Assembly: GCA_947168935.1 (NCBI GenBank)
Contig: CAMVNV010000022.1
Span: forward strand, 1 to 35,550
Direction of reading: 5' to 3'
Source: an uncultured Butyrivibrio sp.
GTDB lineage: Bacteria; Bacillota; Clostridia; Lachnospirales; Lachnospiraceae
DNA length: 35,550 nucleotides
Position numbers and translations under genes: made by a program. A model generated the notes under the pieces. The model was not told the DNA's origin. It saw only the letters and a list, made by a program, of their open reading frames with translations, and ran no database searches. Numbering within the stretch: the stretch's first letter is position 1; every line of letters begins with the position of its first letter. Of the stretch, positions 6,746 to 34,721 are shown piece by piece.

Positions 6746-6840
6746 CTCCACCAATCTGGTCAAAGAGTGAACACCAGGTAATCAAAAGGTGAAAAGAAAT
6801 ATTATGCTATTTAACTATTTTTATTCTTTAATCGACGTTA

Positions 6841-6873
6841 AAAGATACCGATATTATTATCGGTATCTTTTTT
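6841..6873 (+). terminator. Rho-independent terminator
   Basis: aaagataccgat-attatt-atcggtatcttt then ttta. Confidence 0.8.
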
Positions 6874-6958
6874 ATTGTGATCTTTTTTGCATGAATCAAG
6901 TTTTGTAATTCACTGCTATGACGGCGTTTTTATTTGGTTATAGGTCGAGGAGGCATAG

Positions 6959-8044
6959 ATGTTTGATGTATCTGTAATTGTTCCCATGTATAATGCGAAA
7001 AAATATATTGTTGATTGTATAAACGGACTCCTTAACCAGAGCCTTGAAAATATTGAGGTCATCATAGTAAATGACTGCTCAACTGATGACAGCATGGAGC
7101 TTTGCAAGAAGCATTTTGCTGATAATAAAAGAGTTCAGTTATTAGATCAACCCAGGAATATGGGACCCGGAGCAGCCAGGAATGCAGGTATCAGGGCAGC
7201 AAGAGGAGAGTACATTGCCTTTGCCGACAGCGACGATGCAGTAAGGCCTGATGCATACAAAGCCATGTACGATGCAGCAAAAGAAGCTGATGCTGACGTT
7301 ATACATGTGACAGGAGCTTTGATTCAGACAGTTGACGATGCTCCTGACAATTTAGGCCTCCTTACAGATGATGAGCTTTACAGAGTCACTCTCGATGAGG
7401 GGGACAGGATAGATAAACTCACCATTCTTTCTGATGATGTTGAAGTAAGGCTAAAAGAGTGGCTAATGCACCACATTCACTGGAGCCTATGGAACAATCT
7501 CTACAGGCGCTCCTTTATTGTGGATAATAATCTTTTGTTTGGCGATACCAAGATGGCTGAGGATCAGATCTTTTGTCTGGGATGTCTTTTAAAAGCCGGA
7601 AAATATGCAAAGCTTCCAGGCGAGTGGTATCTGTACCGCATTGGAGGAGCTTCGCTTACAAGAGGACAGAAGCAGGTTAAGACGCTTATAAATGCTCTTA
7701 CAACGCAGATGAAGATAACAAAGCTTATCGATGATACTGTAAAAGGCGTTCCATATCTTGAAAGTAATAAGGGCAAAACAGATGAGATCAAGACCTACGT
7801 TCTGAATCTTTTGGAGACTTCATACATACTGCCGGCCTGTGAGAAGATCGGTGCAAAAGAGCTTTATGAATGCCAGGAACTAAAGGAACTGTTCGAAGAC
7901 AGATTTGGCAATCTTGCAGATTTTGCACTGTTTGAGTTTTTACATTCCCATGACAACGTAAAAGACGTAGTTGACGTCAATGAGCTGCTTAATACTCCGT
8001 CATTTTGGAAGAGTAGAAAAGAAGCTGAGGAAAAAGGAGCGTAG
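6959..8044 (+). CDS. Family 2 glycosyltransferase (GT-A)
   Basis: VSVIVPMYNAKKYIVDCINGLLNQSLENIEVIIVNDCSTDDS...GPGAARNAGIRAARGEYIAFADSDD; RBS gaggagg. Confidence 0.93.
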   Translation: MFDVSVIVPMYNAKKYIVDCINGLLNQSLENIEVIIVNDCSTDDSMELCKKHFADNKRVQLLDQPRNMGPGAARNAGIRAARGEYIAFADSDDAVRPDAYKAMYDAAKEADADVIHVTGALIQTVDDAPDNLGLLTDDELYRVTLDEGDRIDKLTILSDDVEVRLKEWLMHHIHWSLWNNLYRRSFIVDNNLLFGDTKMAEDQIFCLGCLLKAGKYAKLPGEWYLYRIGGASLTRGQKQVKTLINALTTQMKITKLIDDTVKGVPYLESNKGKTDEIKTYVLNLLETSYILPACEKIGAKELYECQELKELFEDRFGNLADFALFEFLHSHDNVKDVVDVNELLNTPSFWKSRKEAEEKGA

Positions 8045-8047
8045 TAA

Positions 8048-10618
8048 ATGGGCAAAAAAGAATATCTTGTATCAGTCATAACTCCCTTCCATAACACAAA
8101 GATGGAGTTCTTTAAAAGAGGATATGATTCCTTAAAGAGACAGACACTTGGCTTTAAGAACATCGAGTGGGTGGTTGTCGTCCATAATTCTGAAGAGTCA
8201 TATGCAAGTGCGGTTCAAAAGCTTACAAAAGATGATGACAATGTCAGAATATATATCTTAAACAATGACAAGAGAACTCCATCCAGTCCCAGAAACTATG
8301 CGCTTACAAAGGCTCAGGGCAAATATATAGCATTCCTTGATTCAGATGACTTTTTTACCGATGACGGGCTAGGGGAAGTTGTTGAAGGAATGGAAAAAAC
8401 AGGAGCTGATATCGCAAGCTTCAGAGCAGAGACACTTCCTGAGGATGAGACTGTCATTCAGGCTATTGATACAAGAGCAAGGTTTGATCAGACACTTCAC
8501 ATGCTTGAGTTCAAAAAGGGCGATGAAAAGCTCAATGACCTTATCTACGCCGGCGGCCTTACTATCTGGAGTAAGCTCATAAGAAGGGATTTTCTGGATA
8601 AATACAAGATCAGCTTTTCACTGGACATGAAATATGGTGAAGATGTCTGTTTTAGCATGGAATGCCTTGGTAAAGCCAAAAAGATCATAATACTTCCACA
8701 GACAATTGTATATGTGTACTTCATGAACCACGGCTCTCTTGCACAGGATATGAACCACACACCCGAGAGTCTTATGAAGCTTGCCAGTGACTTTGCGCAT
8801 ATTTTTGATGTGACAGTAAAAGGTGGGTATAAGCTTGAAATGCTCGCGTGGCCGGTTCTTGGCTATCTTGCTGAGATGATGGCGATAACGCCGGGGCTTG
8901 ACGATGAGTTCAGTACCAAAATATACAATATGATGCACAGATATTTTGACATCTTAGGTCCTCTTGAACCTGATGCCAAGTTTTTTAATGCCCAGATGGC
9001 AGAGCATTTCATGAAAAGAGCCCGCATGATAATCCTTGGAGAAGAAGATAATGACGAAATGGCGGCTAGTTCACTATTTCCAATTCTTCTTGCAAATGCA
9101 GATACTGAATACGGTCAAAGGTACGGCTTTGGCAGCATAAAAAGTATAGAGGACTACCAGAAGAAGGTGCCGCTATCTGACTATAGTACATATAGGCCTC
9201 TTATAAAGCTTATGACCCGTATAGGAGAAAGTAACCTTATCTGCAAGGATAAAGTTGTTGCCTATTCAAGGAAAATGTGCCCTGATGGCGGTGAATTCCT
9301 CGTGCCTTTGACTGCACCATTTGTATCTGTATATCAGAACAGGCTCACGGAAGAACTTAAAGGGGCAAGGTATTCAACCTTCCTTGCAATGGAAAGCGCA
9401 GGTGAAGTAGGGATTACAAGGTTTAATGATGGTGCAATGCTTCATTCAATTGCTGACACAGTTCTTTCTGGTATCAGGAAGACCGATATCTATAATTCGC
9501 ATACAAGAAGTACTGAGAATAAGTATGGAACAATCACTTCGCCCGAGAGCGTATTATTCAAAAACCCTGGAGAGGATATGAGATATGCAAAGCTTGTATT
9601 TGCTCTTGCAGATCCGGATGTATCACAGATTATCGTCCCATTTACAGTAAATATCCTTGATATGGTAAGGTTCCTTCAGTGTATGTGGGAACCTATTGTA
9701 GAAGATATTGCCGGTGGCAGGATTTCTGAAGTATCCGGCCTTTCTGATGACAGAAGACAAGAACTATCAAAGCTTTTAAAAGCTTCAAAGAGACGTGCAA
9801 AAGAACTTAAAACGATCTTTGAACAGGGCTTTGATAATGTATTTCCTAAAATCTGGAAAAAACTTGATCGTATTGTGGCAGCAGGATCTGGCGAAAATGC
9901 AGTTTATTCAAGGCAGGTCATGAAGTATATAGGCAGTGTGCCTCTTGATTATGGCTATCTTGGAATTGCAGAGGGCATTATAGGAAAGGTATCAGCTAAA
10001 GGAGAGAATACCTATATTGTAATGGAAAAAGACTCATTTCTTGAGTTTTTGCCGGAGAATTCGGAAAAAGACAATACACTTACAGCATCAGAACTTGAGA
10101 TATCCAAACACTACGAAGTCATCATTTCGAATATGGCAGGACTTTACCGCTACAGAAGCGGAATCATAGTTGAAGCTACAAAGATACAGGATGGTCAGAC
10201 TTATGTGCGATACTGTTATGACAGAAAGGATGTCATAGCAGTTAATGGTGTTACCTTAAATACACTCTCCCTAAGGCAGGCTGGTAAGAAGATAGATGAA
10301 GAAGCCGGCATGATAACTTACGATTATTGTCTTTTTACAAATGATAAAAAGAACTGCTTTGAGCTGTTTTTAAAGCCTGAAAAAGATGGTAAATACAGCG
10401 CAAAACGTGTTCAGGAGATTGCAGAAAAAGAGCTTTCAAAAAAGATACCATCTTACGGCAAGGCAAGGAAAGAAGGCAGGATTAATAAGATAGGGATCCA
10501 TTTCCTTCCTTCTTCTGAAGCTGACATTTTGAAAGGAAAAGCTCCCAAGCCGATCAGGATAATACATGCATCTTCAGATTCAAATCTTCTTAAAACCTTC
10601 AAAACATTGGAAATATAG
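8048..10618 (+). CDS. Fusion protein: N-terminal GT2 glycosyltransferase plus C-terminal GH3-family (acyl-acid-amido synthetase-like) domain
   Basis: GT2 half: VSVITPFHNTKMEFFKRGYDSLKRQTLG...PSSPRNYALTKAQGKYIAFLDSDDFF. GH3 half (from about nt 9080): LLANADTEYGQRYGFGSIKSIEDYQKKVPLSDYSTYRPLI, LGIAEGIIGKV...FLEFLPEN, YEVIISNMAGLYRYRSG. Single uninterrupted ORF. Confidence 0.85.
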   Translation: MGKKEYLVSVITPFHNTKMEFFKRGYDSLKRQTLGFKNIEWVVVVHNSEESYASAVQKLTKDDDNVRIYILNNDKRTPSSPRNYALTKAQGKYIAFLDSDDFFTDDGLGEVVEGMEKTGADIASFRAETLPEDETVIQAIDTRARFDQTLHMLEFKKGDEKLNDLIYAGGLTIWSKLIRRDFLDKYKISFSLDMKYGEDVCFSMECLGKAKKIIILPQTIVYVYFMNHGSLAQDMNHTPESLMKLASDFAHIFDVTVKGGYKLEMLAWPVLGYLAEMMAITPGLDDEFSTKIYNMMHRYFDILGPLEPDAKFFNAQMAEHFMKRARMIILGEEDNDEMAASSLFPILLANADTEYGQRYGFGSIKSIEDYQKKVPLSDYSTYRPLIKLMTRIGESNLICKDKVVAYSRKMCPDGGEFLVPLTAPFVSVYQNRLTEELKGARYSTFLAMESAGEVGITRFNDGAMLHSIADTVLSGIRKTDIYNSHTRSTENKYGTITSPESVLFKNPGEDMRYAKLVFALADPDVSQIIVPFTVNILDMVRFLQCMWEPIVEDIAGGRISEVSGLSDDRRQELSKLLKASKRRAKELKTIFEQGFDNVFPKIWKKLDRIVAAGSGENAVYSRQVMKYIGSVPLDYGYLGIAEGIIGKVSAKGENTYIVMEKDSFLEFLPENSEKDNTLTASELEISKHYEVIISNMAGLYRYRSGIIVEATKIQDGQTYVRYCYDRKDVIAVNGVTLNTLSLRQAGKKIDEEAGMITYDYCLFTNDKKNCFELFLKPEKDGKYSAKRVQEIAEKELSKKIPSYGKARKEGRINKIGIHFLPSSEADILKGKAPKPIRIIHASSDSNLLKTFKTLEI

Positions 10619-10630
10619 GAGGTATTATAA

Positions 10631-11926
10631 GTGAACTTATCAAGGATAATATCAGGGCAGATGTACTTCTATTTCGACGTGGCATATTGCGGAATGAGGC
10701 AGGAACTGACATTTGATGAGGATATTGATGGCAGGATATTAAAAGAAGCACTTCTAAAAACCCAGAAGGTGCATCCATATATAAAATGGACGATCGAGGA
10801 AAAGAACGGAGAATTTTTCTATAAAGATACAGATACGGATGTAACCCTGATTGAAGGTGATAAAGACATAGTACTTGGTACAGATGAATTTGATGGACAC
10901 CTTATCGGCTTTGTGTATTATGGCAACAAGCTTCGTATGGTTTTATATCATGGTCTTTCTGATGGTGTCTCGTCAAAGAGAATCATGGAGACACTTTTGT
11001 ATCACTATTATTCTATCAAGGACGGATGTGAGTACAAGTCGGATAACATCCTGGTAAAAGAAGCTTTCGAAGGTTGCGAGTATTATGCCGAACCCTATGA
11101 AAAAGATATTCCGCCTTTTACCAAAAATGATGGGCCTTTAGATGATCCTTCTGAAGATGAGATATTCCGTTTTTCGCAGCATGAGGCGGTTGATACGACA
11201 AGCTATGTCCAGTGCATAAGGATAACTGACAAGGCGTTCATGAGCTTTGTCAAAGAAAATGAGACATCACCGGCAGCAGCTTTTGCAGTTCTCATAAGCC
11301 AGACCATCCAGAAGATGTATCCGGGCAACAAGAAACAGATCAAGATCAATGTACCAGTCAACCTTAGAAACGTTCTTGGCGTTACATATACTTTTAGAAA
11401 TACAACGGGAGATGTGGCAATCTATTATGATCCCGATAAGCTAATGCAGCTTGATATCAAGGATCAGTGCAAATCCATGCGCCAAAGGCTCAAGGAAAAG
11501 ATGGCTCCTGATAACCTTCTGTCAGTTGCAAAGTCGCAAGTCGATTTCCTTAATATGACAGCAGGATTAAATGGGTACGATGCAAGGTATGATATGTACA
11601 GCAGCATACCGCTTCCTCCTTCAGACTCGATCTTTATCAGTTATATTGGAAAACTAAATGCTGATTCTTATGAAAAGCACATAACAGATGTTTCTATCGT
11701 TAGTGGAGCCAGGGACGGAATAGTATTTAATATCTACGACTGTGGCGGGGATTTTTTTCTGACATGTATGAAAAAGGGATCATTAAAGGACTTTAGCGAT
11801 GCCTTTTGTAAGCACCTTAAAACATATGGGCTTGAAGCAAATACAATGCCTGAAAAAAAGATAAAGCTAAACTATGTTGCGCTTAGAGAAAGGCTATCAC
11901 TTAAGGGGAAAAGGTTATACGACTGA
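10631..11926 (+). CDS. Condensation-domain/alcohol acetyltransferase-like acyltransferase (CAT-fold superfamily)
   Basis: HxxxDG motif (YHGLSDGVS, nt 10949-10966) and INVPVNLRNVLG...FRNTTGD typical of C/PapA/AATase-like enzymes. Confidence 0.75.
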   Translation: MNLSRIISGQMYFYFDVAYCGMRQELTFDEDIDGRILKEALLKTQKVHPYIKWTIEEKNGEFFYKDTDTDVTLIEGDKDIVLGTDEFDGHLIGFVYYGNKLRMVLYHGLSDGVSSKRIMETLLYHYYSIKDGCEYKSDNILVKEAFEGCEYYAEPYEKDIPPFTKNDGPLDDPSEDEIFRFSQHEAVDTTSYVQCIRITDKAFMSFVKENETSPAAAFAVLISQTIQKMYPGNKKQIKINVPVNLRNVLGVTYTFRNTTGDVAIYYDPDKLMQLDIKDQCKSMRQRLKEKMAPDNLLSVAKSQVDFLNMTAGLNGYDARYDMYSSIPLPPSDSIFISYIGKLNADSYEKHITDVSIVSGARDGIVFNIYDCGGDFFLTCMKKGSLKDFSDAFCKHLKTYGLEANTMPEKKIKLNYVALRERLSLKGKRLYD

Positions 11927-11966
11927 TATGTTTTTTATACAGAAAATATAAGCGGAGGATACTACC

Positions 11967-13265
11967 ATGAGTACAGATATCGGAACAAATAATAAGATGT
12001 TCCTGCTTTTATCCAGTGCGGGCAAGGCAGCAGTGATCGAGTACCGCTATCGCCTTACTGAAGCTATATCCTATGATGCACTCATTGAGGCTACAAAGGA
12101 TGCTGTTTCATCATTTCCATATTTTGGTCTAAAGCCAGTCGTTGATAAAGATGGAAGGCTTATTATGGAAAATAACGGCGGTCCTATGCCTGTTTTTAAA
12201 AAGGATGAAAAGCAAAGAAATTTAGGGTCAGATGATACCTATAGATATCTGTTCCGTGTTCTCTATGACGATGATGAGATCGATATTGAAGCGTCACATG
12301 GCATTGGCGATGGAAGAGGTATCATGGCCTTTTCACAGACGCTTATATACTATTACCTTGTTCATACAGGAAAGAGCATAGACACAGAAGGAATGCTCTA
12401 TACCAAGGCTGACTTGTCAGATAAGACGATATCAGATCACCTTCTTGACCGAATTTTGGAGATAACACCGGTAGATATTGTCGAAGAGACGGCCGTTTCA
12501 AAGATCTTCTGTCCTACAGAAAAAAAGGTTATGAGCGGAACACCATATACCAAGCGCCTTGTACTTAGCTGGGATTTTAAAAAGCTGATGGATAAGATAA
12601 AACCTCTTGGCGCATCCCCGCTTACTTTTTTTCATGATCTTATTTCAAGCACTATGTACGAGTACTACGACGTAAAAGATGCGACTGTTGTTGCAGATGT
12701 TCCTGTAGATGTAAGAGAAAAGCTTGGAAGCCGCGCACAGTCTAATTTTACCATTAACATAAGCATACCCATCGAAAGGGAAATGACTGCTAAAGCGCAG
12801 GAGGAACGCTACAAAGAGCTTAAGGAAAAGCTGAATGAGAAAACGAAGATAGAGTATCTTGCCTATACAATGCAGGGCACAGGGCAGTTTCTTTCGATGA
12901 TAGATCAGATCTCGCTAAGGGATGAAGCGATGCTTAAGATGATGGAGAGCAAAGCTTCTGATTCTCAGGAACCTATGAGAAGCTATCTTTTGTCCAATAT
13001 TGGCCTTATGAAGCTTCCTAAGGACATGATGCAGTATATTAAAGACTTCGATATATATTTTACCAATCTTGAAGCTTCTCCTGTATTTACGATGCTGACC
13101 TTTGGAGGAAGAGGGATGGTCATAGTCGGACAGAACTTTGAAGAAACTGGACTTATTGATGCTGTCTATAAAAAGCTCAAAGATATGGATGTTGATGCAG
13201 ATCTCAAAGACTATGGACGTTTTACGATGGATGATGCAAATGTTAAGGGATTCGAATGTTTATAA
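11967..13265 (+). CDS. Second condensation-domain/alcohol acetyltransferase-like protein
   Basis: HxxxDG motif (SHGIGDGRG, nt 12297-12314), DVPVDVREKLGSRAQSNFTINISIPI; RBS gcggagga. Confidence 0.72.
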   Translation: MSTDIGTNNKMFLLLSSAGKAAVIEYRYRLTEAISYDALIEATKDAVSSFPYFGLKPVVDKDGRLIMENNGGPMPVFKKDEKQRNLGSDDTYRYLFRVLYDDDEIDIEASHGIGDGRGIMAFSQTLIYYYLVHTGKSIDTEGMLYTKADLSDKTISDHLLDRILEITPVDIVEETAVSKIFCPTEKKVMSGTPYTKRLVLSWDFKKLMDKIKPLGASPLTFFHDLISSTMYEYYDVKDATVVADVPVDVREKLGSRAQSNFTINISIPIEREMTAKAQEERYKELKEKLNEKTKIEYLAYTMQGTGQFLSMIDQISLRDEAMLKMMESKASDSQEPMRSYLLSNIGLMKLPKDMMQYIKDFDIYFTNLEASPVFTMLTFGGRGMVIVGQNFEETGLIDAVYKKLKDMDVDADLKDYGRFTMDDANVKGFECL

Positions 13266-13277
13266 GAGGCAGAGCAG

Positions 13278-14357
13278 ATGATGAAGAGAGAAAACGGTCT
13301 TGATCTTTTGCGCATATTTGCAGCGTATCTTGTTGTCACATTGCACGTTTGTACATTTATAAGACAATATGTTGCTGATATTGGAGAGCTGAATTTTAGT
13401 TATCACTATTTTATGTTTATAAGGCAGATGACAACGAGTGCAGTAATTGTTTTTATCATGCTCTCCGGAGCTTTTGTTCTTAAGGCATCTTCCACAAAGG
13501 ATTTTGCCTCATTCTATAAAAAGACCTGGAAAAAGCTCTGCATTCCGACCGTCATCCTTTCGTTTTTCTACTGGTTTTTTAATGCCTTTGTTTATTGGAA
13601 AACAGGGATATATGGAATGGTATTTGGAATAGAAGACCTGACGTATCCGCAGGCTCTGATGTTCCAGGGAATAAGCTTTTTAAAAGGTACACCTTCTGAG
13701 CATATGTGGTATATGTATACTCTCATAGGATTATATCTCATGGCGCCTTTCGTTGCGCTTGGTAAAGAGAAACTAGGAGAATCCCGCTTTAAAAAAATAG
13801 CGATTATAGTCTGTCTTTGGGGCATAATCGATGCACTTGTAAATCCATCATCCCTCTTCTGGGGAATTGGATATTGTGCACAGCTTCTGGGTGTTTTCAT
13901 GATGGGATATGTCGCTCATGAATGGGCACTTTTAAGAAAAGGGAAAAATGGGCTTGGATGTGCTCTCATTGTTCTTGCAACAGCCATAACGGCTGTAGAA
14001 TATTTTATTTTTCTGTCGATCAGGGATAATGGTACATTATCTGCCTATGTGACACCAATGGTCCCGTATAACCTGATACTTGTCATAGCAACCCTGTTTT
14101 ATGTTGCCGGTTTTACTATCATTGATATTAAAAAGGATTTTGGATATCTTTCTCTTTTGACTTTCTGGGTATATCTTCTCCATCCTGCAATAATGATGGT
14201 TTTATTTCTCATTGAGGAAGCAGTTTTCAAGGTTCCATTTCTGGAAATTGGAAGGGAAAGTTCGCTCCTTATAGGTACAGGAAAATCTATTCTGGTATAT
14301 GTTCTTTCTTTTGTCTGTGGACATGTGATCGAGAAATGTTCTTCCCGTAAAAAATAA
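13278..14357 (+). CDS. Acyltransferase family 3 (OafA/WecH-like) integral membrane O-acyltransferase
   Basis: RENGLDLLRIFAAYLVVTLHVCTF start, multiple TM helices, VFIMLSGAFVLK, HMWYMYTLIGLYLMAP. Confidence 0.88.
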   Translation: MMKRENGLDLLRIFAAYLVVTLHVCTFIRQYVADIGELNFSYHYFMFIRQMTTSAVIVFIMLSGAFVLKASSTKDFASFYKKTWKKLCIPTVILSFFYWFFNAFVYWKTGIYGMVFGIEDLTYPQALMFQGISFLKGTPSEHMWYMYTLIGLYLMAPFVALGKEKLGESRFKKIAIIVCLWGIIDALVNPSSLFWGIGYCAQLLGVFMMGYVAHEWALLRKGKNGLGCALIVLATAITAVEYFIFLSIRDNGTLSAYVTPMVPYNLILVIATLFYVAGFTIIDIKKDFGYLSLLTFWVYLLHPAIMMVLFLIEEAVFKVPFLEIGRESSLLIGTGKSILVYVLSFVCGHVIEKCSSRKK

Positions 14358-14372
14358 AGAGGAAAAAATTGC

Positions 14373-16133
14373 ATGAAGAAAATAGCTGGGCTTCTTTCAT
14401 TCAAAGAGTATATGTATATGCTTATCTGTGTCTTTTTGATCGTGGGACAGGTGTTTTTTGAAATAAAGATTCCTAACGTGATGGGAGAACTTACTGATCT
14501 GATCTATTCTGGAAACGTTGATGTCTTTAAGCAGATAAGCTATGGAATCACTATGTTTACATATGCAGCAGCTTCGCTTGTGTTTTCATTCCTCGTAGCT
14601 TTTCTGGTGGCAAAGGTAGGAGCGGCACTTGACTCTAAGGTGCGTAAAGCTACTTTTACGAAGATCATGGATTTTTCTTTAAAGGAAGTTGGAGACTTTG
14701 GTACATCAAGTCTTATTGCCAGATGTACTGCTGATATATATCAAATTCAGACTTTTTTTGTAAATGGTTTTCAGCTGCTTATTAAATCACCTGTAATGAT
14801 CATATGGGTTACTGTGCAGATATCAAGCGTCAATGTCTATTACAGGAGCGCCACTATCACAGCAGTTGCCATACTTGTCGCAGTTTTGTCAGCTGTAGCA
14901 ATACTGGTTCTTCCGATAGTTAATAAGGCACAGTATGCCAAAGATGAGCTTATTCGTATAGACAGAGAGCATCTTGATGGCATACGCGTTGTCCATGCAT
15001 ATAACGGCTATGAGAAGCAAAAAGAAAGATTTGAAGAAGCTAATGAAAGGATAACGAGTCTTCTTCTTCGCTATGATAAGTCTTCAGCACTGTTTGCCCC
15101 TTTTTCCAATATGGTCATGTATTCTCTGACAGTGATCATATACATCATAGGTGCACATATCGTTGCAGACTCTGATGAGAGCTTAAGAGCAGGCGTTAGC
15201 AATGAAATGATCGTTTTTGTGTCCATGTTGTCCATGCTTATTAGCAGTTGCATATATCTGATCCTTGTTATGGTTCTATTGCCGAGTGCATGCGTTTCAT
15301 TTAAGCGTATCGCGCAGGTCCTGAATAAAAAGATTGAGATCATTGATCCAGAGAAAGCGGCTGCAAAAGATCCTGGTATTCACGGAAGTTTGGAATTTAG
15401 AAATGTCAGCTTTATGTATCCCGGGAGCCGCGAATATGCCATTAAGGATATATCTTTCAAGATGGAAAAGGGCGAGACAGTTGCTATTGTAGGAGGAACA
15501 GGCAGTGGCAAAACGACACTCATAAATCTTATACCAAGATTGTACGAGGTGGCAGAAGGCCAGATATTGGTTGACGGCGTTGATATTAAAAAGATGAAAC
15601 TTAAGGAACTTAGAAATATCCTTGGATATGTTCCTCAAAAGAGTTTCCTTTTTGCAGGAACGATTGTATCAAACATCAGCTTTGGTGATAACGGTAAGCT
15701 CAAACAAACTTTAGAGGAAATAGTAAAAGCAGCCAGGCTTGGAAAAGCAGATGAGTTTATAAGGACAAAGCAAGGCGGGTATGATGCGGTTGTAGAAGAG
15801 GGAGGTTCTAATTTCTCCGGAGGTCAGAAACAAAGGCTTACAATCTCAAGAGCAATATGCAGAGATCCTGAGATATTTATATTTGATGATTCCTTCTCGG
15901 CTCTTGATTATAAGACAGATAAGACAGTAAGAGAGGGACTTAGGCAAACTCTTAGCGGTACTTCGATCCTGATGGTCGCACAGAGAATATCGACTATTAA
16001 AAGTGCAGACAAGATCTTAGTCCTTGATAACGGCAAAATGGTCGGAATGGGAACTCATGATGAGCTTATGACAAGCTGTGATGTATATCGTGAGATTGTC
16101 CTTTCGCAGACGGATACGGAGGCGACCGGATGA
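14373..16133 (+). CDS. ABC exporter half-transporter (ABC membrane plus ATPase), degenerate-site subunit
   Basis: Six-TM domain, Walker A GGTGSGKTT, signature FSGGQKQRLTISRA, Walker B FIFDDSFSALD. Confidence 0.95.
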   Translation: MKKIAGLLSFKEYMYMLICVFLIVGQVFFEIKIPNVMGELTDLIYSGNVDVFKQISYGITMFTYAAASLVFSFLVAFLVAKVGAALDSKVRKATFTKIMDFSLKEVGDFGTSSLIARCTADIYQIQTFFVNGFQLLIKSPVMIIWVTVQISSVNVYYRSATITAVAILVAVLSAVAILVLPIVNKAQYAKDELIRIDREHLDGIRVVHAYNGYEKQKERFEEANERITSLLLRYDKSSALFAPFSNMVMYSLTVIIYIIGAHIVADSDESLRAGVSNEMIVFVSMLSMLISSCIYLILVMVLLPSACVSFKRIAQVLNKKIEIIDPEKAAAKDPGIHGSLEFRNVSFMYPGSREYAIKDISFKMEKGETVAIVGGTGSGKTTLINLIPRLYEVAEGQILVDGVDIKKMKLKELRNILGYVPQKSFLFAGTIVSNISFGDNGKLKQTLEEIVKAARLGKADEFIRTKQGGYDAVVEEGGSNFSGGQKQRLTISRAICRDPEIFIFDDSFSALDYKTDKTVREGLRQTLSGTSILMVAQRISTIKSADKILVLDNGKMVGMGTHDELMTSCDVYREIVLSQTDTEATG

Positions 16134-17866
16134 AGAATAACTTATTTTCCAAGATCGCAGTATTCGCAAAAAAATATAAAGTTTATTTCATTGCAGGCAT
16201 AGTACTTGGGCTCGTGGGTTCTCTGTTAAATGTATTGATCCCAAACATGGTCAAAAATATCGCTGCACTTATTTCAGAGAGTCTTTATACAAATGCGATG
16301 GATTTTCATTCCATAAGAGTTGTTGCCATAAAGACAGCTATCGTCATTATCATAAGCTTTATCACAAGCTATTTTGGCGCATGGTGTCTTACCGTTGGCG
16401 GACAGAATATGGTTAAAGACATTAGAAGTGCCCTGAGTGATAAAACAGACCACATCAGGATGAACTATTTTGACACAACAGCACTTGGAGATACGGTGAG
16501 CAGGATGACAGATGACTGCGATGCATTTTCGGCAGCTATATCATCCAATCTTGGTAAGGCTATATTTTCAATTATTATCGTTTTGGGATGTCTATTAGTG
16601 ACGTTTGTCATAAATCCGCTTTTGGCATTTTGCTCCATTGTAAGCATTTTACTAGGACTTTTTATAAATGCTACCTTTGCAGGTATGGGGTCAGATTCGA
16701 TCAAAGAGCAGAGAAGACTTCTTGGGAACATGAACGGGATGATAAATGAGTCGATATCAGGCCATATGCTCATCAAGACCTTCAATGGAGAGGAAGAAGT
16801 CCTTGAGCAGTTTGACAAAAAGAATCAGGATCTTAGCAGTGCGCTTTTTAAGTCGCAGTTTTTTATCAGCGTGCTTACTCCTTTCATGGATTTTGTCAGT
16901 AACTTTACCTATGTTGTGGTCTGCCTTGTGAGCGGGATCATGATCATTCATGGAAAGATGCAGATAGAGACGCTGGTTGCATTTATCCTCTATATCAAGA
17001 TGGTTACATCTAACCTTACGCAGATAATACAGGCACTTGGAAGTATCCAGCCTGGAATCGCATGCGCAGAGAGGATAATGGAGTACCTTGAACTTGAAGA
17101 AGAGACAGATGAAGGGCGAGAAGATGTTTCCAGGGCTTTGGGCGATGTTGAATTTAAGAATGTACGCTTTGGCTATGCCGAGGGCCAGATTGTATTAAAG
17201 GACTTTAGTGCTCACATAAAACCTGGAATGAAGGTTGCGATCGTAGGGCCAACAGGTGCAGGTAAGTCTACACTTATCAACCTTCTGATGCGCTTTTATG
17301 AGCTTAATTCAGGATCGATCATTGTGGATGGCGTATCTATAAAGGATATTCCAAGATCAAGGCTTCATGATCTTTTTGCAATGGTACTTCAGGAGACCTG
17401 GACCTTCAAGGGCAGTATCAGAGAAAACATAGTCTATTCAACAAAAGATGTGGATGATGAGAAGCTAAATAGCGCAATTGAAAGAGCAGGAATAAAGTTC
17501 CTTGTCGATGCAATGCCGCAAGGCGTGGATACAGTTCTTTCTGAAACAGCGAACGTATCTTCAGGGCAAAAACAGCTCATCACTATAGCCAGGGCGATGC
17601 TTAAGAATGCACCGATAATGATCCTCGATGAAGCAACATCATCAGTCGATACAAGAACCGAAAAGCTCATCCAGAAGGCAATCGATGATATGACCAAAGG
17701 GCATACGAGTTTTGTTATCGCGCACAGACTATCTACTATCAAAAATGCAGATGTCATCTTTGTCCTTAAGGATGGTGATATAGTTGAGACCGGCAATCAC
17801 GAACAGCTTCTTAAAGCCGGCGGATTTTATAGTGAACTATACAAGGCGGGGCTTGATGCTTCGTAA
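16130..17866 (+). CDS. ABC exporter half-transporter, partner subunit
   Basis: ATGA overlap with the previous gene; Walker A GPTGAGKST, signature VSSGQKQLITIARA, Walker B MILDEATSSVD. Confidence 0.95.
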   Translation: MKNNLFSKIAVFAKKYKVYFIAGIVLGLVGSLLNVLIPNMVKNIAALISESLYTNAMDFHSIRVVAIKTAIVIIISFITSYFGAWCLTVGGQNMVKDIRSALSDKTDHIRMNYFDTTALGDTVSRMTDDCDAFSAAISSNLGKAIFSIIIVLGCLLVTFVINPLLAFCSIVSILLGLFINATFAGMGSDSIKEQRRLLGNMNGMINESISGHMLIKTFNGEEEVLEQFDKKNQDLSSALFKSQFFISVLTPFMDFVSNFTYVVVCLVSGIMIIHGKMQIETLVAFILYIKMVTSNLTQIIQALGSIQPGIACAERIMEYLELEEETDEGREDVSRALGDVEFKNVRFGYAEGQIVLKDFSAHIKPGMKVAIVGPTGAGKSTLINLLMRFYELNSGSIIVDGVSIKDIPRSRLHDLFAMVLQETWTFKGSIRENIVYSTKDVDDEKLNSAIERAGIKFLVDAMPQGVDTVLSETANVSSGQKQLITIARAMLKNAPIMILDEATSSVDTRTEKLIQKAIDDMTKGHTSFVIAHRLSTIKNADVIFVLKDGDIVETGNHEQLLKAGGFYSELYKAGLDAS

Positions 17867-17909
17867 ATGATTTATCGAAAGGTGTTTTCCAAGCTAAGGA
17901 GGATGAGAT

Positions 17910-18995
17910 ATGCCAGGTATTTCTGTGATCATGCCAATGTACAAAGCCAAAAAGACTGCTATGTACAGCATTGACGCTCTTTTGAACCAGACCTTTAAGG
18001 ATATAGAGGTACTGGTTGTAGACGACTGTTCTCCGGATGATTCTTATGATGTTGTAAAAGAACATTATAAGGATGAACCAAGAGTCGTACTTATAAGACA
18101 GGAAGTGAATCAGGGGCCAGCTCAGGCGAGAAATAGGGCTTTCGAAGAGGCCAGAGGTGAATATGTCACCTTCCTTGACAGCGATGATGGAATTGTCAAA
18201 GAGGGACTTGAGAAGATGTACGAAGCTGCTAAGAAGTTTGATGCAGATGTAGTACATACTACAGGATGTTTTTTTCCAGTACATAAACCTGATGTTATGG
18301 ATATCATGTCTGTTCCAAAGGACAATTACCTTCCGCAGGACAAGGATAAGGACATCCCGGGAGAGGCAACTCTTCTTACGCAGGATTTCGGAGTAAGGCT
18401 TTCAAAATGGCTTGAGGGTACCTACAACGGCAATGTGTGGGGCAAGATGATAAAAAAGAGCTTTATTATGGATAACAATATCCGGTTTGCATCTATCAAG
18501 ATGTCGGAGGATATCCTTTTTTCCTTTGAATGTCTTATGCGCGCAGCAAAGTATGTGATACTTCCATACAAGTGCATAATCTACAGGATGATAGGAGAGA
18601 GCCTTTCAAGAGGCAAAAAAGATGTTGCATATATGCTAAAACTTCTTGAAGCAACCTTTAGCGGCGATGACAAGTTTTCGGAAAAGATGAATGCGATCCC
18701 ATATTTTAAGGATAATCCGTCTGACAAAGACAAGGTGCTTAAGTATGTGGATGACGTCATGGACATGATGTATCTTGTTCCGGCGTTCCAGTCTGTCGGA
18801 GAAGATGAGCTAAGGGCGGATGAACGTGTTCATGAACTATTTGTAAAGCATTTTGGAAGTCATGCCCAGTTTGCAGAAAGATATTTCTATATGAAGAACG
18901 CGTTTGAGCCGCCTGCACCATCTTATCTGATCGACGATATCACGTACGAGGGATTAAATGCGCAGCTTGAAATATACAAGCAGAGCATTACATGA
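17910..18995 (+). CDS. Family 2 glycosyltransferase, paralog of 6959-8044
   Basis: ISVIMPMYKAKKTAMYSIDALLNQTFKDIEVLVVDDCSPDDS...ARGEYVTFLDSDD; same length (361 aa) and colinear motifs with the first GT2. Confidence 0.93.
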   Translation: MPGISVIMPMYKAKKTAMYSIDALLNQTFKDIEVLVVDDCSPDDSYDVVKEHYKDEPRVVLIRQEVNQGPAQARNRAFEEARGEYVTFLDSDDGIVKEGLEKMYEAAKKFDADVVHTTGCFFPVHKPDVMDIMSVPKDNYLPQDKDKDIPGEATLLTQDFGVRLSKWLEGTYNGNVWGKMIKKSFIMDNNIRFASIKMSEDILFSFECLMRAAKYVILPYKCIIYRMIGESLSRGKKDVAYMLKLLEATFSGDDKFSEKMNAIPYFKDNPSDKDKVLKYVDDVMDMMYLVPAFQSVGEDELRADERVHELFVKHFGSHAQFAERYFYMKNAFEPPAPSYLIDDITYEGLNAQLEIYKQSIT

Positions 18996-19060
18996 CTTCT
19001 TGAAGGGTGCATACTAGCAGAGTGTTAGGTCAAAGCCATGAGTTTTTGAGGAGAACATAC

Positions 19061-20941
19061 ATGGAGATAATCAAAAAAATAAGTGGCAATGAAATGATCT
19101 TTGCGCTTGAGGGACGTCTTGACACGACGACCTCGCCGCTTCTTCGCGAGCAGATAGCGCAGATCCCACCAGAAGTTGAAAAGGTCGAGTTTGACTTTAG
19201 AGACCTTGGTTATATATCTTCTGCCGGGCTACGTGAGATACTTGTATGCAGAAAAAAATTCAGTGGAGACAGGATGAAGGTCATCAATGTGTCGCAGGAG
19301 GTCTACGAGATCTTTAAGACAACTGGTTTTGATCAGATCATCCCCCTTGAAACCGTCACGGATGATATTTCAACATATATGAACCTGTCTTTTAAGGCTT
19401 TTTTGGCCAAAAAAGCTGAGAAAACTCCGGATGCTGTAGCGCTTGTGGATGATAGAGGCGCATTTACCTGGAAGGATGTGGATATATATTCACAGATTAT
19501 TGCGGAAGGGCTTTCTTTAAAAGGAATAAAAAAAGGAACCCATGTGGCTTTGTGCGGCGTAAATTCAGTAAACTGGGTTCTGACCTTTTTTGCCATTCAA
19601 AAGCTTGGAGCTATGGCACAGCTACTTAATTTCAACATGAGTGCTGCTGATGTTGCCAGAGTTGCAACTATTGGGGATATAACTCATTTTTGCTATGGCG
19701 CTATGCCTGAGATGAAGGAGCAGGATGCGTTTATTGACGAACTGAAAAGATCAGGATGTCCTTTGTGCGAGTTCATCTCTATCAGAAATGACAGACAGGA
19801 TATCAGAGAAAGAAGAGATGAATATGAGGCAATCAAATACAAATTTCAGGACTTTGTCGAGGCTGATTCACCCTGCGTAATGATATTTACTTCAGGTTCT
19901 ACAGGTAAGCCCAAAGGAGTTCTTCTGTCTGCCTATAATATCCTTAATGCAGCTAATACTAACTATAAGGATCAGACACTTAATAGTACGGACAGGACCT
20001 GTCTTATACTTCCTTTGTTTCATATATTTGGTCTTGTAGCAGGTCTTTTTGCCAATGCTATTGCAGGGTCGACTTTGTATTTTCCAAGTAATATAAGGAC
20101 GAATACAATTCTCGAACTTATCAGTAAGGAAAAGTGTACTATTTTCCATTCGGTTCCAACTATGCTCATAGCGCTTATCAATAATAAGGACTTTACTAAA
20201 GATAAACTATCATCAGTACGTTGCACCATTATTTCAGGGGCAGCAGCTACGCAATCTCAGATCCTTATGTTCAAAGACAATCTTCCAAACGATCACTTTA
20301 TGTCATCTTACGGCCTAAGTGAGATGGCACCTGTTTCTATATCAACTTACGGAGACAGCGACGAGCATCTTCTCACAACTGTGGGTAAACCTGTTAACAA
20401 TATCTCTATTCAGATACGAAATCTTGAAAACGGAGAAGAGTGCCAGGCGGGAACATCTGGAGAAATCCTTGTACAGGGCTTTAACCTGATGACAGGCTAT
20501 TATAAGACGGATATAGAAAGCCAGTCCATAGATGACATGGGATGGCTTCATACAGGCGATCTGGGTTTTATGGATGAAGAGGGCTACCTTCACCTTTCCG
20601 GAAGACTTAAAGAGCTTATCATAAGGGGCGGTGAGAATATCATGCCTGGGGAGATCGAAGCTGCAATCTCTTCACTTGACGTTATAAATAATGTCAAGGT
20701 CATCGGTGTTCCAAGCGAGTTCTTCGGAGAAGAGGTTTGCGCCTGTATTAAGCTAAAAGATGGAGAAGTATTTGATGAGGAAGCAGTAAAGAAAGAGCTT
20801 TCTGCAAAGCTTGCCAAATACAAAATACCAAGTTATTTCCTGGTATATAATGAATTTCCGCTGCTTGGCACAGGCAAGATAGATGCTGTGAGTCTTAAAA
20901 AGGATGCACTTGAGAAGATCATAAGTACATGCAAAAGGTAA
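19061..20941 (+). CDS. STAS domain fused to class I AMP-dependent acyl ligase (acyl-CoA synthetase-like)
   Basis: STAS: FALEGRLDTTTSPLLREQI...VEFDFRDLGYISSAGLREILVC. Ligase: FTSGSTGKPKGVLLS, SSYGLSEMAPVS, GWLHTGDLGFMDEEGYLHLSGRLKELIIRGGENIMP, GTGKID. ATG 19061 with RBS gaggag preferred over the track's 19007. Confidence 0.92.
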   Translation: MEIIKKISGNEMIFALEGRLDTTTSPLLREQIAQIPPEVEKVEFDFRDLGYISSAGLREILVCRKKFSGDRMKVINVSQEVYEIFKTTGFDQIIPLETVTDDISTYMNLSFKAFLAKKAEKTPDAVALVDDRGAFTWKDVDIYSQIIAEGLSLKGIKKGTHVALCGVNSVNWVLTFFAIQKLGAMAQLLNFNMSAADVARVATIGDITHFCYGAMPEMKEQDAFIDELKRSGCPLCEFISIRNDRQDIRERRDEYEAIKYKFQDFVEADSPCVMIFTSGSTGKPKGVLLSAYNILNAANTNYKDQTLNSTDRTCLILPLFHIFGLVAGLFANAIAGSTLYFPSNIRTNTILELISKEKCTIFHSVPTMLIALINNKDFTKDKLSSVRCTIISGAAATQSQILMFKDNLPNDHFMSSYGLSEMAPVSISTYGDSDEHLLTTVGKPVNNISIQIRNLENGEECQAGTSGEILVQGFNLMTGYYKTDIESQSIDDMGWLHTGDLGFMDEEGYLHLSGRLKELIIRGGENIMPGEIEAAISSLDVINNVKVIGVPSEFFGEEVCACIKLKDGEVFDEEAVKKELSAKLAKYKIPSYFLVYNEFPLLGTGKIDAVSLKKDALEKIISTCKR

Positions 20942-33005: not shown

Positions 33006-33695
33006 ATGAATATACTAAAAAAATTAACTGGCCACATATGGTATATGCCATATGAATCAGAAAGAGACAGACCAAATCTGTGCTATGTTAAAGGGGATAG
33101 TTTTAGTATCGCGATAGATGCAGGACACTCGCAGGCCCATACTAAGGATTTTTATGCTCTTTTGGAGCAAGAAGGCCTGCCCCTTCCAAGTCTTACAGTG
33201 ATCACCCACTGGCACTGGGATCATACGTTTGGTATGCACGCTGTTAATGGTCTGTGCATTGCTAATGAAAAGACAAGAGATTACCTTGCCAAGTGGAAAG
33301 AGAAGATTGAAACAAATGGTCCCGATGAGTTCCTATCACTCCATGAAAGTATCAGGAGAGAATATTCAGGAAATAAGCCTGTAATCGTAACACTTCCTGA
33401 CATAGTATTTTCAGGCAGTATGGAACTTGATCTTGGTGGTATCCACGTCAAAATAATGCAGGCCCAGTCACCACACACAGACGATGCGACACTTGTTTAT
33501 GTCTATGAGGAGAAGGTTCTTTTCATAGGGGATGCTAATAGTGGTGAATTCCCAACATGGATCAAAAGTAGGGACCTTAGCATGAAGCTTGTAGATACGA
33601 TCAAAGAGATTGATCCTAAGATTTGCCTAGAGGGCCATTGGGAGCCTGTTGAGACTTCTGATACCTTAGCTGATCTTATGACTTTTGATAATTGA
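33006..33695 (+). CDS. Metallo-beta-lactamase-fold hydrolase
   Basis: THWHWDHTFG metal motif, QSPHTDDATLVYV, FIGDAN, LEGHWEP. Confidence 0.88.
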   Translation: MNILKKLTGHIWYMPYESERDRPNLCYVKGDSFSIAIDAGHSQAHTKDFYALLEQEGLPLPSLTVITHWHWDHTFGMHAVNGLCIANEKTRDYLAKWKEKIETNGPDEFLSLHESIRREYSGNKPVIVTLPDIVFSGSMELDLGGIHVKIMQAQSPHTDDATLVYVYEEKVLFIGDANSGEFPTWIKSRDLSMKLVDTIKEIDPKICLEGHWEPVETSDTLADLMTFDN

Positions 33696-33713
33696 CATTA
33701 GGAGGTTAGATAC

Positions 33714-34121
33714 ATGGAATATATACACAACGTTCAGTACTATGAAACCGACAAGATGGGCATAACCCATCACTCAAACTATATCAGATGGATGGAAGAA
33801 GCAAGGATAGACTTTCTGTCTCAGATAGGATGGGACTATGCAAAGCTTGAAGAGATGGGGATCATATCACCGGTTTTGAGCGTGACTTGTGACTACAAGC
33901 AGAGCACGACATTCCCGGACAGCGTTCATATAAGCGTCTCGGTAAAAGAGTTTAAAGGCGTTAAGCTCCACCTTGCCTACGAAATGAAGAATCAGGACGG
34001 AGGGACTGTATGCAAGGGTACATCTTCACATGCATTTTTAAATCGTGAAGGAAGACCTATCCGAATGAAGGATGAACAGCCTGAGCTCTTTGAGGCACTT
34101 AGCAGTTTGGTATCTGCATAA
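33714..34121 (+). CDS. Acyl-CoA thioesterase, 4HBT (YbgC-like) family
   Basis: VQYYETDKMGITHHSNYIRWMEEARIDFLSQIG; hotdog-fold signature. Confidence 0.9.
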   Translation: MEYIHNVQYYETDKMGITHHSNYIRWMEEARIDFLSQIGWDYAKLEEMGIISPVLSVTCDYKQSTTFPDSVHISVSVKEFKGVKLHLAYEMKNQDGGTVCKGTSSHAFLNREGRPIRMKDEQPELFEALSSLVSA

Positions 34122-34142
34122 CACTATATGGGAGGAAAAGCA

Positions 34143-34721
34143 ATGCTTTATGACTTGGTAAAAGAAAACAGAAGTTACAGAGGCTATAAGGAAGGTTACA
34201 CTATATCTGAAGAAGATCTCAAAGACCTTATAAATATGGCAAGAATCACTGCATCAGGAGCAAATCTTCAGCCGCTGAAATATAGAATCGTTACTGATAG
34301 TAGTGAAGTAGATGCGCTTAATTCCTTAACCAGATGGGCCAAGATGCTGACAAATATTACTTTGCCCCATGAAGGAAAATATCCAAATGCCTACATCGTA
34401 GTCTGCGTAGACAAGGATATCTGCAAGAACGAAGAAACTGCAAAGATGGATATTGGTATTGCTGCTCAGACCATACTACTTGGCGCTGTTGAAAAAGGCC
34501 TTGGAGGATGTATGCTTGGCAATTTTGACAAGGAAGAACTGAATAAGGCTTTGTCACTTACCGAAACAATGTCACCACAGCTTATCATAGCTATTGGAAA
34601 GCCTGATGAAAAAGTAGTTCTTGTAGATACCAGTGACGACGGCAGTACCAAGTATTACAGAGATGAAAATGATATACATTATGTTCCCAAAAGAAAGCTG
34701 GAAGATATCCTGATCAGATAA
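34143..34721 (+). CDS. Nitroreductase-family protein
   Basis: LVKENRSYRGYKEGYTISEEDLKDLINMARITASGANLQPLKYRIV; GIAAQTILLGAVEKGLGGCMLG. RBS ggaggaaaag before ATG 34143. Confidence 0.88.
   Translation: MLYDLVKENRSYRGYKEGYTISEEDLKDLINMARITASGANLQPLKYRIVTDSSEVDALNSLTRWAKMLTNITLPHEGKYPNAYIVVCVDKDICKNEETAKMDIGIAAQTILLGAVEKGLGGCMLGNFDKEELNKALSLTETMSPQLIIAIGKPDEKVVLVDTSDDGSTKYYRDENDIHYVPKRKLEDILIR

Follow-up and report, generated by a model that had tools for sequence, protein, structure and literature searches.

A mobile Butyrivibrio operon with two stand-alone HxxxDG proteins, a candidate route to an exported acylated sugar compound

Several described systems resemble parts of the operon analyzed here, which lies in a 35,550-nucleotide stretch of Butyrivibrio DNA (the window, i.e., the whole stretch) and encodes two neighbouring HxxxDG proteins, C1 and C2. 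In mycobacteria, PapA5 and the trehalose-acylating PapA proteins are stand-alone proteins with the HxxxDG fold, and PapA pathways include an acyl-activating FadD-type ligase and a lipid exporter. PapA5 itself is also able to take acyl groups from carriers. PapA5 is the second structural hit of both C1 and C2, and weak PapA_C matches are found among their relatives. However, C1 and C2 themselves have no significant sequence match, and the operon has neither a polyketide synthase nor a Mas-type carrier. For the AATase family (PF07247), the link is a profile match, over nearly the full length, to a group in which one member exceeds the AATase cut-off; C1 and C2 themselves give no direct PF07247 match, and the acceptor is presumably a sugar and not a volatile alcohol. 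Condensation domains of NRPS (PF00668) share the fold and HxxxDG with C1 and C2, but the two proteins have no Pfam match, align to these domains over the first half only, and belong to an operon without a carrier or an NRPS module.

Two further systems are alike in their accessory parts. The OlsH protein, a GH3-like lyso-ornithine lipid synthetase, has a GH3-like domain as fused in the window (PMC12493201); however, its nucleotide-binding motifs are recognisable, while in the window protein motif I and the motif III Asp are gone. The fungal mannosylerythritol-lipid (MEL) cluster of Ustilago and relatives (Emt1, Mac1, Mac2, Mat1, Mmf1) comprises a glycosyltransferase, two acyltransferases, an acetyltransferase and an exporter, which is the same parts list as in our operon (PMC11117751), and the structural hits of C2 include a MEL acyltransferase. 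Unlike the window operon, the MEL cluster is fungal, has an MFS exporter and contains neither a GH3 fusion nor a STAS-ligase, and the likeness is taken as an analogy of parts rather than as pathway homology. Our analysis suggests that the most likely role of the operon is the synthesis and export of an acylated sugar compound, with no carrier protein dedicated to it.

Gene content of the operon

The nine genes are ordered GT2a, GT2-GH3, C1, C2, Acyl_transf_3, two MsbA-like ABC halves, GT2b and STAS-ligase. Compared with the copy in another Butyrivibrio genome (G201), all nine are under purifying selection (dN/dS 0.05-0.15). The features are as follows.

6809..6958, + strand: leader, the left end of the cassette; from 6809 on, the nucleotide sequence matches both cassette copies
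6840-6875: terminator-like hairpin and poly-T in the leader, directly before GT2a; conserved in G200 and G201
6959..8044, + strand: GT2a, GT2 glycosyltransferase (PF00535, 4.7e-37)
8048..10618, + strand: GT2 and GH3-like fusion with degenerate nucleotide-binding motifs (PF00535, PF03321)
10631..11926, + strand: C1, acyltransferase-fold HxxxDG protein of 431 aa with a GTG start (AF2, Foldseek, tree)
10949..10966, + strand: HGLSDG motif of C1 (H107, D111)
11967..13265, + strand: C2, acyltransferase-fold HxxxDG protein of 432 aa, beta clade (AF2, Foldseek)
12297..12314, + strand: HGIGDG motif of C2 (H111, D115)
13278..14357, + strand: membrane acyltransferase, Acyl_transf_3 (PF01757, 2e-28)
14373..16133, + strand: ABC exporter half 1, MsbA-like (PF00664/PF00005; TIGR02203 at 9e-98, below cut-off)
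16130..17866, + strand: ABC exporter half 2, MsbA-like (PF00664/PF00005; TIGR02203 at 1e-116, below cut-off)
17910..18995, + strand: GT2b, GT2 glycosyltransferase (PF00535, 1.3e-33)
19007..20941, + strand: STAS domain and acyl-activating ligase fusion (PF01740, PF00501, PF13193)

The leader hairpin is a possible attenuator. Only 1 of 200 shuffles folds equally well (z -3.7); Rfam gave no match in the window. For both ABC exporter halves the best-matching models are MsbA. The true start of the STAS-ligase is likely the ATG at 19061, since the ortholog starts at the equivalent position.

In the GH3 part of the fusion protein, motif I is lost and motif III reads GLYRYRSGI in place of GLYRYRLGD, so that its Asp is gone, and the same is seen in the orthologs. 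With the nucleotide-binding motifs I, II and III defined as in PMC12493201, the window GH3 part does not carry the motif set of a GH3 acyl-acid amido synthetase, and among the aligned GT2-GH3 fusions only that of G135 (L114) keeps both motif I and the motif III Asp. An active amide ligase is thus unlikely. Because the motifs are lost while the fusion gene still shows constraint (dN/dS 0.09 for the whole gene), the GH3 part may serve in binding instead of adenylation.

The ligase part is an intact member of the ANL superfamily, with PF00501, PF13193 and the core motifs TSGSTGKPKG, YGLSE, HTGDLG and GTGKID present in the translation. Its nearest PDB chains are CoA ligases, and one acyl-ACP synthetase is also among the matches. 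STAS domains recur in five related loci (L100, L101, L190, L191 and L229), where they are fused to a ligase, fused to an APH-like kinase or stand alone, and SpoIIE-type phosphatase genes lie close by in L100 and L101. In the window protein, the ISSAGL stretch of the STAS domain sits at what we take to be the position of the phosphorylated Ser of SpoIIAA-type proteins. This STAS pattern resembles control of an acyl ligase by partner switching. A search of one literature library found nothing on STAS-fused ligases or on the nine-gene set.

Motifs, fold and family of C1 and C2

Both ORFs, their HxxxDG motifs and the second segment were found in the sequence as reported by the first-pass annotation; the segment is NVPVNLR at 11348-11368 in C1 and DVPVDVR at 12696-12716 in C2. 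Among the window ORFs of at least 80 aa, only C1 and C2 contain HxxxDG, at homologous positions. By itself the motif is mild evidence, because it occurs in 3.8% (C1) and 2.1% (C2) of shuffled sequences. Homology makes the motif case firm: three positions (the H, the D and a Tyr) do not vary among 32 aligned relatives, the PVNLR segment has a nearly invariant Arg, and dN/dS against an ortholog (0.11 for C1, 0.09 for C2) indicates purifying selection on both genes. Loss of HxxxDG in orthologs, which would have spoken against the first-pass annotation, was looked for, and C1, C2 and their orthologs all retain the complete motif. The residue before it is Tyr in C1 (YHGLSDG) and Ser in C2 (SHGIGDG), i.e., the leading His of the NRPS-type HHxxxDG is absent in both.

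The earlier description of the enzymes as tandem holds in that they are neighbours, but the word is misleading, as tandem duplication is ruled out by an identity of only 20% and by a tree that puts them on opposite sides of a branch with 100/98 support. C2 belongs to a clade (beta) of cassette proteins that are often near ABC genes and nearly all have HxxxDG. Its sister clade (alpha) usually adjoins GT2-GH3 and keeps the H and D, with the glycine gone in every member. C1 falls outside both and clusters with other stand-alone proteins of the family; the trees thus reject it as the window's counterpart of the alpha clade. The separate clades of C1 and C2 are compatible with two different acylations.

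Sequence searches with C1 and C2 against Pfam, NCBIfam and the PDB sequences yielded nothing noteworthy, and profile searches against the PDB were likewise without significant hits. AlphaFold2 models built on the 32-sequence alignment reached pLDDT 82.6 and pTM 0.86 for C1, and 92.7 and 0.92 for C2. With Foldseek against the PDB, 248 (C1) and 257 (C2) matches were obtained at E <=0.001. The top matches were TRI101 (2e-15) and PapA5 (4e-15) for C1, and AzeD (4e-16) and PapA5 (6e-16) for C2, with the MEL acyltransferase at rank 9. The models thus place both proteins in the two-lobed condensation/BAHD/PapA5 fold of the CAT-like superfamily. As judged from the models, structure settles the fold and not the acyl donor, because AzeD and the C, E and Cy domains of NRPS score similarly to PapA5.

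Profile comparison indicates that C1 and C2 are much nearer to the AATase/PapA5 side than to NRPS condensation domains, as the first-pass annotation had suggested. The AATase-like group is matched near full length by the C2 clade (E 2e-40) and by the C1 profile (E 3e-25), while NRPS-type C domains are matched over the first half only (2e-6 and 2e-9, respectively). This group was chosen by its similarity to C1 and C2, and the independent part of the argument is its Pfam match: its member L215 passes the Pfam AATase cut-off (28.9 vs 22 bits) and is linked to C1 and C2, themselves without a PF07247 match, through the profile comparison. Among the 32 relatives, weak family matches were to PapA_C in six, AATase in two and Condensation in one (0.095). 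The six PapA_C matches (best 2e-5) do not reach the PF16911 cut-off, and C1 and C2 are unmatched. Neither protein matches PF00668 even at E 10; for comparison, a stand-alone C protein encoded in the same genome reaches 1.5e-31. The Pfam and profile tests both speak against membership of the NRPS condensation domains.

Lateral transfer and spread of the cassette

The operon and its leader form a cassette that spans about 6809-20941 in the window. The entire operon is also found in G200 and G201, two genomes placed in the window's genus by the contigs they share with L217 and L241, with 84-90% protein identity and different neighbours (loci compared: L159-L162, L268 and L269). Between G200 and G201 the cassette is 99.8% identical over 12.5 kb, whereas outside it identity falls to 79.8% for the HDOD gene and 70.9% for the flagellin region; therefore, the cassette moved laterally and recently. 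The HDOD and CPBP genes, which flank the operon in the window, are adjacent in G200 and G201 with no gene between them. The donor probably belonged near the lineage of the window, because window positions 33589-34358 (thioesterase/nitroreductase) share 97% identity with the DNA that lies immediately upstream of the G200 cassette. Pieces of this same DNA lie on both sides of the cassette in G201. A scan of ten neighbours revealed neither a transposase nor an integrase.

A search with the GT2-GH3 fusion returned 78 loci, spread over Bacillota, Bacteroidota, Synergistota and Actinomycetota. Of the 78 record titles, 50 mention a ruminant-gut source or MAG series, a raw keyword count that is uncorrected for the make-up of the collection. 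In fifteen loci, GT2-GH3 occurs together with a C-family protein and one or more full ABC genes. Type-B carboxylesterases (COesterase) recur within the related cassettes L109, L111 and L129, where they perhaps provide a deacylase step.

We also considered a link to the diabolic-acid galactolipids of Butyrivibrio. This was dropped, as close C1 orthologs occur in just 3 of the 79 genomes of the genus and the literature search gave nothing usable.

Acyl donor, carrier proteins and alternative readings

What the data establish directly is which genes are present, the fold and family side of C1 and C2, purifying selection, the lack of a carrier at the locus and the cassette's lateral movement. From these parts we infer an acyl donor, an acceptor, an order of steps and a product. 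The GT2 enzymes of the operon would make a small sugar-containing scaffold, onto which C1 and C2 would each put one acyl group; acyl-CoA would come from central metabolism, the operon's STAS-ligase or both. The membrane acyltransferase would add a further acyl, perhaps acetyl, group, and the MsbA-like ABC transporter, as a heterodimer, would export the product. A dedicated carrier protein would not be needed. A link between glycosylation and the acyltransferases is suggested because a relative of GT2a is fused to a C-family acyltransferase (L177/L217). We lean towards this reading of C1 and C2, as soluble, carrier-free acyl-CoA O-acyltransferases acting on a GT2-made sugar scaffold with MsbA-like export, with moderate confidence.

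The claim of the first-pass annotation that the operon has no PCP/ACP ORF and no gap large enough for one agrees with our scan. A small home-made profile found no PP-binding domain among all window ORFs of at least 40 aa, and no intergenic gap of the nine-gene operon exceeds 43 bases. Its two close copies, in G200 and G201, likewise lack a carrier. Of the 15 related cassettes, 13 have no carrier in the fetched stretch and two have PP-binding domains (L229, and weakly L253), which are NRPS-type carrier domains in A-PCP or NRPS proteins; these loci stop at contig edges or at flanks of 10 kb and were scanned with the small profile, so absence is not proof. Genome-wide, a PF00550 search returned four PP-binding genes, all on contigs other than that of the window:

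C75: PP-binding gene beside plsX and the RNase III gene
C105: PP-binding gene in a fatty-acid cluster
G000:C32 (L181): ACP outside fatty-acid loci, adjoining an AMP ligase and a stand-alone Condensation-family protein
G000:C39 (L182): ACP outside fatty-acid loci, adjoining an AMP ligase, GNATs and a B12 radical SAM gene

The search for an orphan ACP thus gave two ACPs outside fatty-acid loci, but both have local partner ligases of their own. This bears on the main rival, in which C1, C2 or both use acyl-ACP in trans, from the fatty-acid ACP or from one of these two. We consider it unlikely, even though the two ACPs are present, related cassettes contain PCP domains in two cases, C-like folds often bind carriers and an acyl-ACP synthetase is among the ligase relatives. 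The pairing of the extra ACPs with their own ligases argues against it, as does the position of the C1/C2 sequence family on the AATase/PapA side. A dedicated distant carrier is unlikely because it is missing from most cassettes and from the unit transferred in two species; the general fatty-acid ACP is a possible donor carrier in trans. A non-acylating role of C1, C2 or both in a peptide-like pathway (amide formation, dehydration, epimerisation or a structural role) is very unlikely. It would fit AzeD, named a dehydratase, as the top structural match of C2, the good Foldseek scores of epimerisation and heterocyclisation domains, and the NRPS modules in several related loci (L253, L236 and L247). 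However, there is no NRPS module in the window operon, and C1, C2 and their orthologs retain the complete motif. The loss of the motif glycine in all members of the sister clade next to GT2-GH3 could also be read in favour of such a role, but in CoA-dependent acyltransferases the glycine is optional and only H and D are absolute (PMC5484351).

The product could also be a cell-surface polymer or a lipid-anchor decoration instead of a secreted small glycolipid, which is compatible with C1 and C2 as acyltransferases. The three GT2 domains, a membrane acyltransferase of the polysaccharide-decorating type and an MsbA-type exporter that could flip a lipid-linked sugar point in this direction; on the other hand, the operon has no polymerase, Wzx-type flippase or undecaprenyl-sugar transferase, and we regard a surface product as rather doubtful.

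Returning to carrier-free acylation by C1 and C2, a more far-reaching reading, which we hold to be less likely than not, is a new, laterally spreading class of gene clusters in ruminant-gut bacteria of at least four phyla for a new family of exported acylated glycoconjugates, with carrier-free acyltransferases, a fusion of a glycosyltransferase with a degenerate GH3 domain and a STAS partner-switched ligase. If the acylated-sugar reading is right, rumen bacteria would share, by lateral transfer, a compact acylated-sugar route that resembles yeast biosurfactant clusters and whose enzymes are named by no family library. The operon would then allow tests of how enzymes with the condensation fold function when no carrier is dedicated to them, and could point the way to compounds that are exported in the rumen.
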